DNA of 40,275 nt from a virus. Where the stretch lies: the IMG/VR virus record IMGVR_UViG_3300008262_000175, positions 1 through 40,275 of that record. One strand, written 5' to 3'. Position 1 is the first letter of the stretch. The number at the start of each line of letters is the position of its first letter. Positions 18,247 to 40,139 of this stretch are shown here, piece by piece. The notes under the pieces are model-generated. The model was not told where the DNA came from, did no database searches, and saw nothing but the letters and a program-made list of their open reading frames with translations. The position numbers and the translations under genes are program-made.

Positions 18247-18290
18247 TAAAAGAATGGGGCGAGCGAGCCTAAGCCCACTCGCCCCATTCT
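18247..18290 (-). terminator. Terminator or attenuator between capsid and downstream head genes
   Basis: Perfect 13-bp arms (18251-18263 and 18278-18290, AGAATGGGGCGAG and its complement) with a 14-base loop. In the minus-strand transcript TTTT follows directly and then the ribosome site of the next gene. Partial termination here would raise capsid over connector transcripts. Confidence 0.75.
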
Positions 18291-18312: not shown

Positions 18313-19545
18313 TCAGACAGCGACGCGGATCTTGCCGTTGAACTGAGGAGCCTTAGCAGCCAAGCCGTACATCACAAACATGATATAGAGCCGGGTCAGC
18401 GCGCCACCCACACCAACAGGGATCTCAAGGGTCGTGATCGAGTCCGAACCGAGGTAAGGCATCGACCAGGTGTCCTCGTCGACGACATACATGTCGCGGA
18501 CGTTGACGCTAGAAACGGTGTACGAGCCGATCGAGTCGCCAGGAACGGCGAGGAGCGGAAGTGCACCAGCTGGGGTCACGACTGACCCGAAACCAAGACC
18601 AGCCGTCGCGCCCTCGCCGCCACCTGGGTAGCGGATAAGGTTCGTCAGCTCGTTCTGGTAAGCAGCAGCATCCGTAGGCGAAAGAATGATCGCCGATGGG
18701 TTGCCACCGTTGTTCAGGATCGAGGCAACGGTGTCGTTGATGGCAGCCGTGTACGTCGAAGTTCCCTTCGTCGTAATTGGGTTGCCAGCAGCAGCGGCCG
18801 AACCAAGAACCTTGCGAAGGCCGTCGAAGCCGTTCGCATCGTACGCGCCGAGCTCGACACCGGCAGTACCGGTCGAGGACGAAGCGTTACCCTGGAAGAG
18901 GGTCTTCTGGAGCTTGTGGGCAATTGCCGTCACGCCGCCCGAAAGCTCGGTGGCGAGGCCGTCAAACCCAGCACCACCCTGCGTGATCGCAAACTGCGAC
19001 TTGAGGGTGATACCACGGCGGGTCGCAAGGACCGCAACGTTCGTGGTCTGGCGGGCATAGGTGTTGGTGTCATCCGTCACCGTGCCAGCTTCAGTCATGA
19101 ACGCCGCATCGCCGTAAGCGGTCTGCTGATTGTAAGCGTGAACAAGTCCGTTGGCGCCTTCCTTGCGGATGCGGTCAAAGAACGGGAATCGCTTTACGAA
19201 CAGCGCGTAGAGCATTGGCTCGAGGTCCTGGCGGATAAGCGCAGCGCCGCCGCTAGCATCGAGCACCTTGGCAATGTTCGGGTTAGCAACCGCGAGGCGG
19301 TTGAGAACATCGTCACTGGCCTGTCGACCGGACTGCTTACCAGCCTGGACGTCAAGCATCTTCTTGACATCGTTCGAGTCCATCGAGACGAACTTCTCGC
19401 GCAGCTCGCGCTGTGCGACAAGGGCGCTCACGGAATCAAACGAGTCTGCCTGTGCGTCGTCCTTGCCGACAACACCTGCAGGGGCCGCATTAAGGCCCTC
19501 GAGTTCCTTCTCCAGGCCCTCGAGCTTCTCGCGAATCTCAGACAT
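18313..19545 (-). CDS. HK97-fold major capsid protein
   Basis: 410 residues. The N-terminal ~25 residues are coiled coil (EIREKLEGLEKELEGL), as in HK97 delta domains, followed by a charged linker to about 95. The core starts ALIRQDLEPMLYALFVKRFP and contains QQTAYGDAAFMTEAGTV (E-loop type), RRGITLKSQFA and a C-terminal LEIPVGVGGAL..YIMFVMYGLAAKAPQF. Its ATG follows the protease stop immediately, with GGAGAAG as ribosome site. It is preceded by protease/scaffold and followed by a hairpin terminator, the standard arrangement. Confidence 0.85.
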   Translation of the reverse strand: MSEIREKLEGLEKELEGLNAAPAGVVGKDDAQADSFDSVSALVAQRELREKFVSMDSNDVKKMLDVQAGKQSGRQASDDVLNRLAVANPNIAKVLDASGGAALIRQDLEPMLYALFVKRFPFFDRIRKEGANGLVHAYNQQTAYGDAAFMTEAGTVTDDTNTYARQTTNVAVLATRRGITLKSQFAITQGGAGFDGLATELSGGVTAIAHKLQKTLFQGNASSSTGTAGVELGAYDANGFDGLRKVLGSAAAAGNPITTKGTSTYTAAINDTVASILNNGGNPSAIILSPTDAAAYQNELTNLIRYPGGGEGATAGLGFGSVVTPAGALPLLAVPGDSIGSYTVSSVNVRDMYVVDEDTWSMPYLGSDSITTLEIPVGVGGALTRLYIMFVMYGLAAKAPQFNGKIRVAV

Positions 19546-21225
19546 TTATTTCTTCTCCAAAATAGCCTGAATATACGGGCTCAACCAAGGGGCATCAATC
19601 CCCTTCTTCGCCGGTACATCCGTAAGTATTGACTTTCGGCCAGCTGGTGACTTTAGAGCAAGCTCCAAAAGCTTCACCGCATGCTCGAGGTCCTTCTCAA
19701 GCTGCTCCTTCTCCTCCAAGAGTTCGGTCGCGGCGGTATTCTCCACCACTACCTCCTCTGCGGGAACGGAAGCAACAGCTTCTTCAGTAACCACGGCGAG
19801 ATCCGCCTCTTCAGCGGTCGTCTCGGTAGCCTCTACGTGATGGTCAAGGGACTTCGTCGTCTCATCAACGATTCCGGCCTCGACCGATTCGGCCGCGGGT
19901 GCAGCCTCCTCTTCGGCCGCTGGTGCAGCCTCATACTCTAGATAGGCCTGCACCCATCCAGCAGCATACTCAATGTACTTCGCTCGGTCGTCATTAGCCT
20001 CTTCAGACTTGACGGACTCGAGCTCGCTGACAACATTCTTAAGTCGTTCAGCGACCGGCATTGCCCCCTTCTCTTCGACAACGGGCTCAGGCGTTGCGGA
20101 CGCTGGAATTGGAAGCTCGCGCTCCTTACCGTCCGTGCCAGAGACAGTCACCGTGACGCGGGTTGCCTTTTCAAGCGTTTCGCTCACGTTTTCTACCTCA
20201 TCTCCTGCACTGGCGGCCTCTTCGGGAGCCGGTGCGATCTTTTCCTCTATGGACGGAACAGCAACTTGCTCCCCGCCTACAGCATCTGCTCCTGAAGCCG
20301 TGTACGACCCAACAGCTTCCTCAGCATCAGATTTAGTGGCGCTGCTTTCGACCTCGCCCTCGTCGTCGTCCTCTTCATCGTCCTCAGCCTCAGCGAGAGG
20401 CGCGATCTTTGAGAGGGTTGAGAACTTATGGCCAACAAGCGTCTCGGTTTCCGCCCAGCCGTCACCGGCCTCGCTATAGATTCGGATTAGTGCCGCCGGG
20501 TCTTCCGGAGTTGCATTTACACTGAAGTCCGAATCTGGAATGCCAAGAACTCCTTCGCGCATGATGTACTCGATTCTACCGCGAGCCGTTCCGCCGCTGG
20601 AATTCCAGCTGACGAAGTCACCCTCCTTGAGGGCGTCTGGCTCTGCCTTTTCTGTAATCTCAAGCTCACCAGCCTGATCGGCAGTGCGGAGGCTCTTGAG
20701 CGCATTCTGAAGATACGATCGCTGGTTTGCCGGAATGCCGACAATGCTTGATTCGAGAAGATTTACTTTCTCAATAACGTATGTATCAAGGCCGCTGGAG
20801 TCCTTCCGCTTGGAAACCTTCTCGACGCGAGCGCCGATAGACATTCCGAGCTTTACCCCTCTCTTAATGGCCTTGTACGCCTGCATTGCGGCAGGGTTCT
20901 CTTCTTCCGGGCAAACCTTGACATCGATATCAAGATCGTATACCTCAAGGCCAGTGTCGGCGTCAAGACGCTTGACAATCCTGGCGTCCGTAACAGAACC
21001 AAAGAGGTCCTCCGGAACGTTGTAATTGTGGTTGAGGAATACGGTCATGTTTTGCTTCGCCGTATCCGCCATGGACTTGATAGCGTCAAGAGTGATCTCA
21101 TCACCCTGTCGATCCCTAATCGTAGATGACGTGGTCCCGGAGACGTATAGATCTCCGTTATCGGACTCCCGTACCTTTAGGGCGTTGGTGTAAAGCTTGA
21201 AATCCAAGACAACCTCCCTGGGCAT
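19546..21225 (-). CDS. Prohead protease fused to Tudor-like domain and acidic scaffold
   Basis: 559 residues. Residues 1-175 are an S78-type prohead protease: NHNY with His66, MSIGA with Ser129, and LLESSIVGIPANQ. Residues 199-272 (KEGDFVSWNSSGGTARGRIEY...GHKFSTL) resemble the Hva1/TUDOR domain. Residues 275-500 are very acidic with Glu/Ala repeats, and the end is helical and basic, the profile of a scaffold. One polypeptide may thus provide protease and scaffold. The TTGACT/TACAAT promoter upstream leaves a leader of about 10 bases with AGGGG near the ATG. Confidence 0.8.
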   Translation of the reverse strand: MPREVVLDFKLYTNALKVRESDNGDLYVSGTTSSTIRDRQGDEITLDAIKSMADTAKQNMTVFLNHNYNVPEDLFGSVTDARIVKRLDADTGLEVYDLDIDVKVCPEEENPAAMQAYKAIKRGVKLGMSIGARVEKVSKRKDSSGLDTYVIEKVNLLESSIVGIPANQRSYLQNALKSLRTADQAGELEITEKAEPDALKEGDFVSWNSSGGTARGRIEYIMREGVLGIPDSDFSVNATPEDPAALIRIYSEAGDGWAETETLVGHKFSTLSKIAPLAEAEDDEEDDDEGEVESSATKSDAEEAVGSYTASGADAVGGEQVAVPSIEEKIAPAPEEAASAGDEVENVSETLEKATRVTVTVSGTDGKERELPIPASATPEPVVEEKGAMPVAERLKNVVSELESVKSEEANDDRAKYIEYAAGWVQAYLEYEAAPAAEEEAAPAAESVEAGIVDETTKSLDHHVEATETTAEEADLAVVTEEAVASVPAEEVVVENTAATELLEEKEQLEKDLEHAVKLLELALKSPAGRKSILTDVPAKKGIDAPWLSPYIQAILEKK

Positions 21226-21241
21226 AGCCCCTAGCCCTAGG

Positions 21242-21276
21242 ATTGTATGACTGTTCTATTGACTAGTCAACAGAAC
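21242..21276 (-). promoter_or_regulatory. Head-operon promoter with overlapping operator dyad
   Basis: Minus-strand -35 TTGACT (21265-21270), 17-base spacer, -10 TACAAT (21242-21247). A 24-bp dyad (21253-21276) with arms GTTCTxTTGACT has a single mismatched position per arm and covers the -35. A repressor bound here should block the promoter. Confidence 0.7.
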
Positions 21277-21327
21277 AATTTCTACGTGGTATTTAACCAC
21301 ATTTCTGCACAGTTTACACATATTAAG

Positions 21328-21360
21328 ACCCTATTAGTCACCTATTTTGACCATTAGGGT
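21328..21360 (+). promoter_or_regulatory. Second dyad in divergent control region
   Basis: 33-bp symmetrical arrangement: ACCCTA, 3 bases, GTCA, 7 bases, TGAC, 3 bases, TAGGGT. It lies 21 bases upstream of the plus-strand -10 at 21382. It is a candidate regulator site; a GTGGT-ATTTA-ACCAC inverted repeat (21286-21300) also lies nearby. Confidence 0.55.
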
Positions 21361-21381
21361 GGGTATTAGTCCTTTATACCG

Positions 21382-21393
21382 TATAATAATGCA
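21382..21393 (+). promoter_or_regulatory. Consensus -10 giving a leaderless transcript
   Basis: A perfect TATAAT (21382-21387) is followed by six bases and then the ATG at 21394, so transcription should begin at or next to the start codon. No Shine-Dalgarno sequence exists. The -35 region is weak. Confidence 0.6.
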
Positions 21394-21852
21394 ATGGATA
21401 CTGACAGCGAATTCGCCCTAGGGCCGGAGCCTGAGATAGTCGAGGTGTCGGCGGATGAGCCGTCTAAAAAGTGCCCAACGTGCCAGCAGCTCCAGGAAAC
21501 AGCCTCAGAGCTAAAGCGCGGGTACAAGGAGCTTGCCCGACTACAGAAGACTTTCGAGCCTCTTGTCAAGAGATATGAACTAATACAAAGGGCCCACCCT
21601 CGGTGTGCGCTTTGTTTCATCATGAGCGGTGAGCATCATATCGAGACCGTTCTGGTCCCGGAGCCCCTAGTCCCGAGGGCTAAGGGCCAGAAAAGATACG
21701 CAGTCTGCTCTGACTGCTATAAACTGCTCCACAGGCTTCGGAGGAGCGTACCTCAGCAGCGAGCCTATGCAAGGCACGTCTGGGAGCTCGATAAGGACGA
21801 AGATAATGAAATCGTCTTGCCAGGAGAGGACAACAACGAGGTAGAGGATTGA
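21394..21852 (+). CDS. Putative zinc-binding protein, first gene of portal/replication operon
   Basis: 152 residues with no ribosome site before the ATG; apparently leaderless. Three CxxC pairs: CPTC (27-30), CALC and CSDC, with HPRC and HH nearby, suggest one or two structural zinc sites. A helical middle (ELKRGYKELARLQKTF) may be coiled coil. The C-terminus is acidic. It overlaps the next gene by four bases. Family not recognised. Confidence 0.65.
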   Translation: MDTDSEFALGPEPEIVEVSADEPSKKCPTCQQLQETASELKRGYKELARLQKTFEPLVKRYELIQRAHPRCALCFIMSGEHHIETVLVPEPLVPRAKGQKRYAVCSDCYKLLHRLRRSVPQQRAYARHVWELDKDEDNEIVLPGEDNNEVED

Positions 21853-22073: not shown

Positions 22074-24350
22074 GTGGCCGAAGATCGATCGATACTCGAC
22101 CGTATCCTTGGTAGGGGCGGCAACGAGACTGTCAAGAACTTCCCGGACGAGATGCTGCCCAATTGGGACAATTCCCCATACACGCGCGGCGCATCACAGA
22201 TCGACAACAACGGGAAGCGTTCAGTAAAGCAGCTCCGCCGATGGGCGCGAGAGAATCCCTGGATTCGAGCCGCGATCAACCTTCGCCGCACGCAGGTCAG
22301 CCGAGCTCAGTGGGATATCGTCTCGCTTGATGGCGAGACCCCGGTAGACCACCTCACCGTAAAGCGTATCAAGTATCTGTTCCGCCACCCGAACACGCGA
22401 AGGGACTCCTTCCGCTCGTTTATTGAGCCAGTGATTGAAGATCTCTTGACTCTTGACATCGGCGCTATTGAGGTTGAGCCTACCGCAGGTGCCCGTCTTG
22501 GAATCCGACGCGATCCAATTGCTAACCTTTGGCCAATTGACGGCGGGTCTATCCGCTTCGATCCGTCGTGGGATGGGACTGACTCCGACAAGCCGCGCTA
22601 CTACCAGTACGACAGCTCCGGGAAGGTTGTTTCAAAGTATCTGAACGAGGAGCTTGTTGTTATCCAGGCGAACCCAATGACCTACTCGCCACTCGGCCTG
22701 TCTCCACTTGAGGTTCTCGCTTCGACCATTGACTCCGACATGGCTGCGGCCCAATACAACTCGCGGTCCGTGACTCAGGCGGCGCCTCCGGGGATACTCC
22801 ACCTCGGTGAGGGTATCCGCCCGGATCAGGTTGACGCATTTAAGTCTTACTGGGACGCTGAGATTGCTGGGCGCAGCCAGGTCGCCATTACAGGCGGCGG
22901 CAAGCAGATGCAGTGGATTCCACTTGCGCCGTCCAACCGAGACATGCAGTTCATGGAGTGGCAGATCTATCTGGCCCGCAAGATCTGCGCGGTCTTTGGT
23001 GTTCAGCCACAAGACATTGGCATCACGATGGACGTTAATCGGGCGAGCGCCGAGGTCGGCGCTGCATTCACCCAGGACGTTGGCATCACCCCGCTCCTGG
23101 ACCTTATTGCTGAGTACCTAACCCGAGAAATTGTCTGGCGCTACGACGAGAACCTTCGATTCACCTACACCGACCTTGGTCGGGCTTCGAAAGAGGTAAT
23201 CACGCCGTACTACCGAGCCGCTCTTGCCGGTATGCCTTGGCTTCGCCTGAACGACGCTCTCCGTGAGCGCGGCCAGGACGGAGTTGGTAAGATTGGTGAC
23301 GAGATCTGGCTACCAACCCCGCGCGGCTTCCTGCCCCTTTCGCTGTATGCGCGCGAACTTGGCATCGTCGATGGGGACGGGAACACCACTCCACCAGACA
23401 GCCCAGTTGGCGCACCAGAGGGTGGCGATGACGAGACCCAAGAGACACCTGCGCAACCAGCCGACGAGCCAACACCACCGGCAATCGCAATGCCAACAGA
23501 TAGCACGATGCCTGGCGAGGAAAAGGGTGCCGAGCAGAAGCTTCCGCCAAAGCCACCAGCACGGCGATCAAAGCCGAGCATGCCGCCAAAGCCACCAATG
23601 AAGAAGAATCATCCCGGTAAGCGATCGGCCGCTGTTCTTGTCGATCCAATCGGAACAATCATGACCCCAGGTTTTGAAATCCTTGAAGGCGGTTTCGACA
23701 TCATTGAGGACTTCGAGGAAGGTGAGGACGAAGGCGCTGAGATTTACATTATGACCAATGTTCAGAAGGAAGACCTCGGACCTATGATGAAGGCGCTTGA
23801 CGACAACCAGGTCGTAATCACGAACGTGTTCATTCTCCCAGTTGAGGACAACGCAGAGGCAAAGCTTGAGCTTATTGAGGAGCTCCATGAGGAGTTCGAG
23901 AAGATCTACGTCCTCGATGCCAATGAGGATGTCGATTACACAGCCGCAAAGGTAGTGATCCTTTCCGCCAAAGAGGACGCAGAGGAAGACGGCGAGGCCG
24001 AGACCGAGAAGTCAGATCGACCCATCAACCTCAAGGCACCACGAGCAGTAAAGGCTGAAGCTAAGCGAGGCCTGGACTGGCGCAAAGAGTTCGGTCGCGG
24101 CGGGATTGGCCCTGGTCAAACGACAGCGCGAATGCTGATCAATGACACCATGACGATTGCTCGTGCGCGAAAGATGCGAGCTTGGCACGCGCGCCACGCG
24201 GTCGATCGCAAGGGTCAGGGATATCGACCTGGTGAGGCTGGCTATCCGTCCGCTGGCAGGATTGCAAATGCGCTATGGGGCGGGGTTCCTGGGGAGCGAT
24301 GGGCTAATAAGGTCATGCGCCAGGTAGAGGCCCGCGAACGTAAGCGCTAA
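22074..24350 (+). CDS. Portal protein with long C-terminal extension
   Basis: 758 residues with a GTG start. Residues 1-430 match the HK97/PF04860-type portal: ENPWIRAAINLRRTQVSRAQWDI, PIDGGSIRF, LVVIQANPMTYSPLGLSPLEV, then AAPPGILHL and FGVQPQDIGITMDVNRASAEV. A Pro-rich linker (430-510) and an acidic alpha/beta segment (515-645) follow. The last 95 residues (RGLDWRKEFGRGG...ARHAVDRKGQGY...GYPSAGRIANALWGG...RWA) resemble a module found in other phage head proteins. Typical portals are 400-520 residues, so about 300 residues are extra. Confidence 0.85.
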   Translation: MAEDRSILDRILGRGGNETVKNFPDEMLPNWDNSPYTRGASQIDNNGKRSVKQLRRWARENPWIRAAINLRRTQVSRAQWDIVSLDGETPVDHLTVKRIKYLFRHPNTRRDSFRSFIEPVIEDLLTLDIGAIEVEPTAGARLGIRRDPIANLWPIDGGSIRFDPSWDGTDSDKPRYYQYDSSGKVVSKYLNEELVVIQANPMTYSPLGLSPLEVLASTIDSDMAAAQYNSRSVTQAAPPGILHLGEGIRPDQVDAFKSYWDAEIAGRSQVAITGGGKQMQWIPLAPSNRDMQFMEWQIYLARKICAVFGVQPQDIGITMDVNRASAEVGAAFTQDVGITPLLDLIAEYLTREIVWRYDENLRFTYTDLGRASKEVITPYYRAALAGMPWLRLNDALRERGQDGVGKIGDEIWLPTPRGFLPLSLYARELGIVDGDGNTTPPDSPVGAPEGGDDETQETPAQPADEPTPPAIAMPTDSTMPGEEKGAEQKLPPKPPARRSKPSMPPKPPMKKNHPGKRSAAVLVDPIGTIMTPGFEILEGGFDIIEDFEEGEDEGAEIYIMTNVQKEDLGPMMKALDDNQVVITNVFILPVEDNAEAKLELIEELHEEFEKIYVLDANEDVDYTAAKVVILSAKEDAEEDGEAETEKSDRPINLKAPRAVKAEAKRGLDWRKEFGRGGIGPGQTTARMLINDTMTIARARKMRAWHARHAVDRKGQGYRPGEAGYPSAGRIANALWGGVPGERWANKVMRQVEARERKR

Positions 24351-24749: not shown

Positions 24750-24978
24750 CATGTTTGTCGCAAAACAGCTGTTCGGCAGCGATGTATGCGGACACCCTGA
24801 CTGCTTTAACCGGAAGGGCGCTGGCAATAAAATGGCCGCCGTCCAGAATCTCGGTCCAGTCATAAAGACACCGCATGGAGACACCCACACAAAGTGCTTC
24901 TTTAGGCACCTTGCAAGCAACGATGAGCGGGTTTCGGACGACCTCGTACCGGCCGCAGAGGAGCGTATCGATGAGTGA
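24742..24978 (+). CDS. Small Cys/His-containing hypothetical protein
   Basis: 78 residues with an AGGAGAGGC ribosome site. DVCGHPDCFNRKG and HTKCFFRHL could form a zinc site. It overlaps the HNH gene by eight bases and the next gene by eight. No family recognised. Confidence 0.6.
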   Translation: MADMFVAKQLFGSDVCGHPDCFNRKGAGNKMAAVQNLGPVIKTPHGDTHTKCFFRHLASNDERVSDDLVPAAEERIDE

Positions 24979-25231
24979 AAAGTTGAATCAGGACCAGATC
25001 TGCGTCGACTGCGGCGCAGCTACGTCCACAAAGAATACGCTTCGGTGCTGGCCGTGCAGCCGCGAGTACCTTTCCGGTATTCACGCTGCCCCATTCTGGG
25101 ACCGGGTCGCTAAAATTCGAGAGCTTTCCTCCGGGGGCAGGACGATTACGTCCATCGCGAAGGAACTTGGCATCAGCAGGAACCGTGTGTATCAACTGCT
25201 GGAAAGGGCCAAGAAGCGAGAGCCGAAGTGA
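24971..25231 (+). CDS. Zinc-knuckle plus helix-turn-helix regulator candidate
   Basis: 86 residues. The N-terminus ICVDCGA...CWPCSREYL forms a CxxC...CxxC knuckle. The C-terminus SGGRTITSIAKELGISRNRVYQLLERAKKRE is a resolvase/sigma-region-4-type helix-turn-helix. The ATG overlapping the previous stop by eight bases was preferred to an upstream in-frame ATG that would overlap further. A DNA-binding regulator within the early operon is likely; its target is unknown. Confidence 0.7.
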   Translation: MSEKLNQDQICVDCGAATSTKNTLRCWPCSREYLSGIHAAPFWDRVAKIRELSSGGRTITSIAKELGISRNRVYQLLERAKKREPK

Positions 25232-25491
25232 GTCGGCTAAGCGGCCCGGAGCACCAGGGGCGCCGCTTGCAGGAAAAGATCAGGTCTGATAAGGTCTGGG
25301 TAATGCTCAAGAAAACTGGGCTTAAGCGAGCGAAGATCGCCGAAATGCTTGGCGTGAGTCTTGGGTATTTGAATCAGGTACAATACGGACATAGTCCTAT
25401 GTCGAAGCCACTAAGGAGAAAACTATCGAGGCTTTTTAATATGACAGAGCAGGATTTGTTTGAAGATTGGGTAGATAAGGAGAGTAAGTAA
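25228..25491 (+). CDS. XRE/Cro-type DNA-binding protein
   Basis: 87 residues, GTG start overlapping the previous stop by four bases. LKRAKIAEMLGVSLGYLNQVQYGHSPMSKPLRRKLSRLFNM matches the lambda-repressor/XRE fold: helix 2 AKIAEMLG, recognition helix SLGYLNQV. Located just before recombination genes. A candidate to bind one of the dyads in this window, by inference only. Confidence 0.75.
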   Translation: MSRLSGPEHQGRRLQEKIRSDKVWVMLKKTGLKRAKIAEMLGVSLGYLNQVQYGHSPMSKPLRRKLSRLFNMTEQDLFEDWVDKESK

Positions 25492-33266: not shown

Positions 33267-33834
33267 TGATGATCCTCTTCACCTCTTCGTACCCCTCACG
33301 GTTGTGGCTCTCGTGGGTCCAGCCATCATCAATACGGTAGGTCCAGGTGACCTCTGGGACGCACTTGAACTTCGCCCCTGCACGGTACGCCTCAACCCAG
33401 AAGAGCCAGTCATAGCCGAAGACCTGCTTGAACATCCCAACCTTGTTGAAGACGCTCTTGCGGACCAAGGCGTTGTGGCTGACGTTGTTGTCCTTCAGGA
33501 GGCTCTCGGGGTCAAACGGCTTGTTGTACCAGCCGGTGTAATTCGCGCCATCCGCGTAGGAATAGATGATATCCACATCTGGACTAGCCTCCGCCATCAG
33601 GCGCTCCAGGTGATGGGGATGCAAGAGGTCGTCGTCGTCGAGGAGCTGCACCCACTCGGTCGAGACCCGGCGAATCAGAGAGTTCTTCGTCCACCACCCA
33701 CCGCGCTGGTGGAGATCGACCGAAATCAAGTGCTCAGCCGGAAGGAGCGTTTGGGCGCGCACCGACATAATCGCCTCGCCCAACAGGCGGGTCCGCATCG
33801 GTGTACTCGCCGTGACAACTGTTACATCGCTCAT
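33259..33834 (-). CDS. Family 2 glycosyltransferase
   Basis: 191 residues. VTVVTASTPMRTRLLGEAIMS opens a GT-A fold; WVQLLDDDDLLHPHHLE holds the DxD-type site, and FGYDWLFWVEAYRAG has the catalytic-site WE/D pattern. No membrane segment, so cytosolic action on a phage or host acceptor (protein, DNA or lipid) is likely. There is no ribosome site; the -10 lies six bases before the ATG. Confidence 0.8.
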   Translation of the reverse strand: MSDVTVVTASTPMRTRLLGEAIMSVRAQTLLPAEHLISVDLHQRGGWWTKNSLIRRVSTEWVQLLDDDDLLHPHHLERLMAEASPDVDIIYSYADGANYTGWYNKPFDPESLLKDNNVSHNALVRKSVFNKVGMFKQVFGYDWLFWVEAYRAGAKFKCVPEVTWTYRIDDGWTHESHNREGYEEVKRIING

Positions 33835-34098: not shown

Positions 34099-34163
34099 AC
34101 ACCCGCCAGGGGTGTGCGATTCTCGCCAGGTAGCACAACACCCGCCGCGCTTGCGGCGGGTGT
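34099..34163 (-). terminator. Tandem hairpins after the 34189 gene
   Basis: Two hairpins downstream of the minus gene end at 34189. One has 11-bp perfect arms (34138-34148 and 34153-34163, ACACCCGCCGC) with a four-base loop. The other is ACACCC/GGGTGT at about 34099-34115. No U-run follows. Probable transcription end or mRNA-stabilising element. Confidence 0.55.
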
Positions 34164-40101: not shown

Positions 40102-40139
40102 ATCGGTAGGGACCCTAAAAGTCCAGGGACCCTACCGAT
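40102..40139 (-). promoter_or_regulatory. Start-site dyad of the 40082 gene
   Basis: 10-bp perfect arms (40102-40111 and 40130-40139), an A-A mismatch, then 4 more paired bases. Each arm contains TAGGGACCCT-like sequence. It covers the predicted transcription start, so it is either an operator or a 5' hairpin. Confidence 0.6.

Follow-up and report, generated by a model that had tools for sequence, protein, structure and literature searches.

A conserved divergent promoter region, predicted to give one leadered and one leaderless transcript, in a family of uncultured tailed phages

We consider a 168-bp region (positions 21226-21393) at which two long operons of an uncultured tailed phage meet back to back, and the question it raises is whether it works as a switch or simply as a pair of promoters. 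The window, i.e., the whole stretch of DNA analysed here, is a 40,275-bp IMG/VR virus record. Leftward, on the minus strand, runs the head operon, with the S78 prohead protease as its first gene (19546-21207), the SU10-type major capsid protein (18313-19545) and connector proteins. Rightward, on the plus strand, the operon begins with a zinc-ribbon-like protein, gp1 (21394-21852), and continues with the portal protein (22074-24350), two candidate regulators (a zinc-ribbon and HTH protein at 24875-25231 and an XRE/PbsX-type HTH protein at 25228-25491), an exonuclease, a replication initiator, a helicase loader, SSB and DnaB. The intergenic stretch is AT-rich (37.5% GC versus 55%). The preliminary description saw here a control region of divergent promoters, flanked by the head and the portal/replication operons, with two dyads that made it look like an early/late or repressor-controlled switch. 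The divergent promoter region is indeed present and conserved across the phage family; it is an ordinary pair of back-to-back promoters, one predicted to make a leadered transcript and the other a leaderless one. Divergent promoter regions with one leaderless transcript are of a known kind, and it is the regulators that we infer.

None of the cultured phages exceeds 30% capsid identity to the phage of the window, a DNA search of phages gave no match, and the terminase (PF03354) was not found in 15 records. The gp1 protein is conserved among the relatives with its Cys and His residues invariant; no Pfam family scored above the cut-off, and a fold search gave no significant match, its weak, non-significant ones including HNH nucleases. 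The sole capsid match in genome scans (L114) lies on a MAG contig labelled Anaerolinea, with 58% identity and 71% GC. Its gp1-portal and protease-capsid genes are colinear on one strand, and therefore the divergent layout reflects a rearrangement. Anaerolinea was considered as the host and set aside, 58% identity of one MAG being too weak to name one.

On the rightward side, the -10 box TATAAT (21382-21387, plus strand) that the preliminary description assigned to this operon is in place, with no recognisable -35, and six bases separate it from the gp1 ATG at 21394. There is no Shine-Dalgarno before this start. All of the 16 lineages compared have the pattern TAnnnT at 6-7 bases upstream of the start codon (0.98 expected), as do 56 of the 57 distinct sequences that 142 loci have between the two genes, the lone exception being L125 with AATAAT; the gp1 start in some lineages was picked with the -10 pattern in mind, and most lineages have a single in-frame candidate. 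This recurrence makes it almost certain that the predicted gp1-portal mRNA is leaderless. The presence of TAnnnT about 12 bases before the start is a published mark of leaderless bacterial genes (PMC3160421), and gp1 resembles these "TA-led" genes in carrying the motif at that distance and in having no Shine-Dalgarno. It differs from them in being a phage gene, in the family-wide occurrence of the layout, and in having a divergent partner that keeps its Shine-Dalgarno. Elsewhere in the window, a second predicted leaderless promoter, TTGACA-N16-TATGCT-N6-ATG, is located at 33834 on the minus strand before a glycosyltransferase-like gene.

On the leftward side, the head promoter reported earlier is also found, a sigma-70-type TTGACT-N17-TACAAT running from 21270 to 21242 on the minus strand, with the -35 box at 21265-21270 and the -10 box at 21242-21247. 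Taken by itself, in the window only, this string is not beyond chance. Among the lineages, TTGAC-N17-nAnnnT is present at the head promoter in 10 of 16, where shuffles give 0.17; these ten share the N17 spacing and nAnnnT, and TTGAC is found in most lineages having the promoter. The protease, and with it the head operon, likely starts at TTG 21207 (21207-21209, minus strand) and not at the listed ATG 21225, because a 1-base indel places this ATG out of frame in the close relatives L004 and L083, and because the Shine-Dalgarno AGGGAGG (21213-21219, minus strand), five bases upstream of the TTG, is conserved, all relatives aligning CCTCC (as read on the plus strand) at the protease start. Of the two divergent genes, only the protease has a conserved Shine-Dalgarno. 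It is conservation that shows both of the predicted promoters and the leaderless layout. The annotation of the phage family would be corrected to a leaderless gp1-portal message and to a protease beginning with TTG 21207, and conserved promoter coordinates become available for an uncultured group that has no cultured relatives.

The next question is whether the DNA between the two promoters contains sites for regulators. Dyad 1, TGTTCTATTGACTAGTCAACAGAACA (21252-21277), is a perfect-centre palindrome covering the -35 and the spacer of the leftward promoter, from about -42 to -17. Its presence and position over the -35 agree with the preliminary description, and its length does not: it has 26 bp instead of 24, with 12 of 13 pairs and no loop. 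Dinucleotide-preserving shuffling of the 168-bp region gave a score as high as that of dyad 1 in 0.75% of 400 trials (P ~0.0075), and shuffling of the local 100 bp did so in none of 150. From its placement over the -35, it is plausible as a repressor site, i.e., a candidate operator. Only weak (10/12) matches to its half-site occur elsewhere in the window. By the preliminary description's own criterion, a lack of dyad conservation in relatives would refute its reading, and neither dyad is found outside near-identical contigs, in which gp1 is about 98-100% identical. A general excess of inverted repeats is seen in one of 31 lineages, which is the window's own clade.

The second dyad, described earlier as a 33-bp site, is there as a string (dyad 2, 21328-21360, 11 of 13 pairs around a loop of 7) and fares poorly as a site. 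Its score is equalled by 11-15% of shuffles (P 0.11-0.15), which is within chance, and in close relatives with 5 changes over 145 bases, three of the changes fall in its right arm and lower the pairing from 11/13 to 8/13. Dyad 2 is probably not a real inverted-repeat site. With only 5 changes in 145, the zero changes in the 26 bp of dyad 1 are expected by chance.

The DNA of dyad 2 makes better sense as a set of three direct repeats of 11 bp, CATATTAAGAC, CCTATTAGTCA and CCTATTTTGAC (21319-21351, plus strand), a candidate activator array at -75 to -43 from the gp1 start. The repeats start at 21319, 21330 and 21341 with the hexamers CATATT, CCTATT and CCTATT, and the three substitutions in the dyad 2 arm leave these hexamers intact. 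The array has a P of 0.0017 for periods 10-11 and of 0.016 for hexamers at any period of 7-25, and it is not significant (P 0.27) when the full 11-bp unit is scored at any period. The triple hexamer repeat at 21319-21346 is the only one in all 40 kb that combines a period of 10 or 11 with 16/18 or more matches. Of 31 lineages, 7 have helical-turn arrays (P <= 0.01; 0.3 expected); these seven are spread over three clades, one of which accounts for five; most lineages have no array, and its sequence and position differ between clades.

Such arrays are familiar from another setting. OmpR-family activators read direct repeats with an 11-bp period, and the PhoP of M. tuberculosis recognises direct repeats of 7 bp that are spaced by 4 bp (PMC4832192); the Pho boxes of cyanophages (PMC10976474) are direct-repeat boxes of the PhoB/PhoP, OmpR-family kind. 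Like these boxes, the repeats of the window are head-to-tail with an 11-bp period and lie upstream of a -10 that lacks a good -35. Unlike them, CATATT/CCTATT fits no known Pho-box consensus, as compared by eye with the consensus sequences. In the intergenic regions of four lineages (L040, L045, L053 and L057), direct repeats of TTTACC with an 11-bp period overlie the leftward promoter, with 18/18 matches in L057, and CTTAAC-like repeats precede the rightward -10; both sets resemble Pho boxes.

Combining these observations, we consider it probable that the locus is a constitutive-looking divergent promoter region giving a leadered head mRNA and a leaderless gp1 mRNA, with dyad 1 and the repeats as presumed regulatory sites. 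The leftward promoter would start transcription near 21235 and yield a leader of about 28 bases, and the head mRNA would be translated from TTG 21207 via Shine-Dalgarno pairing to give the protease, capsid and connector proteins. The rightward TATAAT, lacking a -35, would give an mRNA beginning at or next to the gp1 ATG and carrying gp1, portal and replication genes. Dyad 1 may be an operator specific to the lineage, where a bound repressor would block RNA polymerase from using the head promoter until late, and the rightward promoter may be helped by a protein bound to the repeats at 21319-21351. For both sites, a regulatory role is what we infer from the sequence.

Alternatively, both promoters are unregulated, dyad 1 and the repeats are due to chance or otherwise non-regulatory, and the timing comes from a phage-modified polymerase, gene order and terminators. 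The broad conservation is limited to the promoter boxes and neither the dyads nor the repeats are universal, as would suit this alternative, but dyad 1 and the repeats, with the P values given above, fall within the same 168 bp, and some help for the rightward promoter is likely because it lacks a -35. We regard it as unlikely that the two promoters are unregulated.

A further alternative is a lysogeny or early/late switch, in which dyads 1 and 2 would be bound by the XRE and HTH proteins to choose between the two operons. The promoters are divergent, a palindrome covers a -35, and the two HTH proteins are encoded downstream of the rightward promoter, XRE in 23 of 29 and HTH in 17 of 29 related records. 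However, the portal, a virion protein, shares the rightward operon with the exonuclease, helicase loader, SSB and DnaB, and therefore early and late genes are not divided between the two arms. Nor is a lysogeny-type repressor switch sustained: no tyrosine or serine recombinase (PF00589, PF00239) was found in the window and 14 related records of up to 91 kb, with positive controls, although the records may be fragments. Dyad 2 is within chance, and the XRE helix YLNQVQYG and the recognition helix of the HTH protein are unchanged in lineages without the dyads. The XRE (25228) and HTH (24875) proteins are thus disfavoured as readers of either dyad, dyad 1 included; the XRE gene itself sits downstream in the rightward operon and not at the divergent region. 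The lambda-type immunity region, with its divergent PR/PRM promoters and leaderless cI mRNA, is among the closest known systems. The window is similar in its divergent promoters, one of them leaderless, and in the palindrome over a -35; it differs in that the region contains no repressor gene and no integrase was found, in that the leaderless gene encodes a zinc protein and precedes the portal, and in its single palindrome where lambda has repeated operators. A switch of this sort seems to us quite improbable.

Sister lineages offer a different view of the same spot. The intergenic regions of L013, L064, L011, L018, L062 and L189 contain the canonical bacterial parS core (GTTTCACGTGAAAC or GTTCCACGTGAAAC), that of L189 being assigned by a 14-bp core match. 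The core stands shortly before the leaderless promoter, some 45-60 bases from gp1, and it is kept while its flanks differ. The window itself has no parS (TGTTTCACGTGAAACA-like palindrome) at 13/16 or better. A ParB of the phage family was considered as an explanation, and no link was found, weak ParB_N-like proteins occurring in lineages with and without parS. A parS followed by a leaderless box occurs in at least 120 stretches of viral contigs, and the combination is not specific to the phage family. The occurrence of parS and of direct-repeat variants here in relatives hints at host regulators. We entertain, as a very doubtful idea, that this divergent spot has been repeatedly rewired to different regulators across the family, with the private palindrome and 11-bp repeats in the window's clade, parS beside the leaderless promoter in its sister clades, and arrays of the Pho-box-like TTTACC/CTTAAC type in a further one. 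If true, the phages would have the same pair of promoters answer to different regulators of the host, including the chromosome-segregation protein ParB.

That the AT-rich region is a replication origin with iterons is hardly credible: it has 11-bp repeats and adjoins the replication operon, but the GC skew does not clearly turn at 21.3 kb, iterons tend to be longer and more similar to one another, promoters are expected to be low in GC, and the promoters on both flanks are conserved.

Across the window, inverted repeats are strongest at 18251-18290, 34138-34163 and 40102-40139, the first two having the look of terminator hairpins. In three lineages (L028, L055 and L059) the intergenic region extends to 600-890 bases and contains an extra open stretch resembling an inserted gene.
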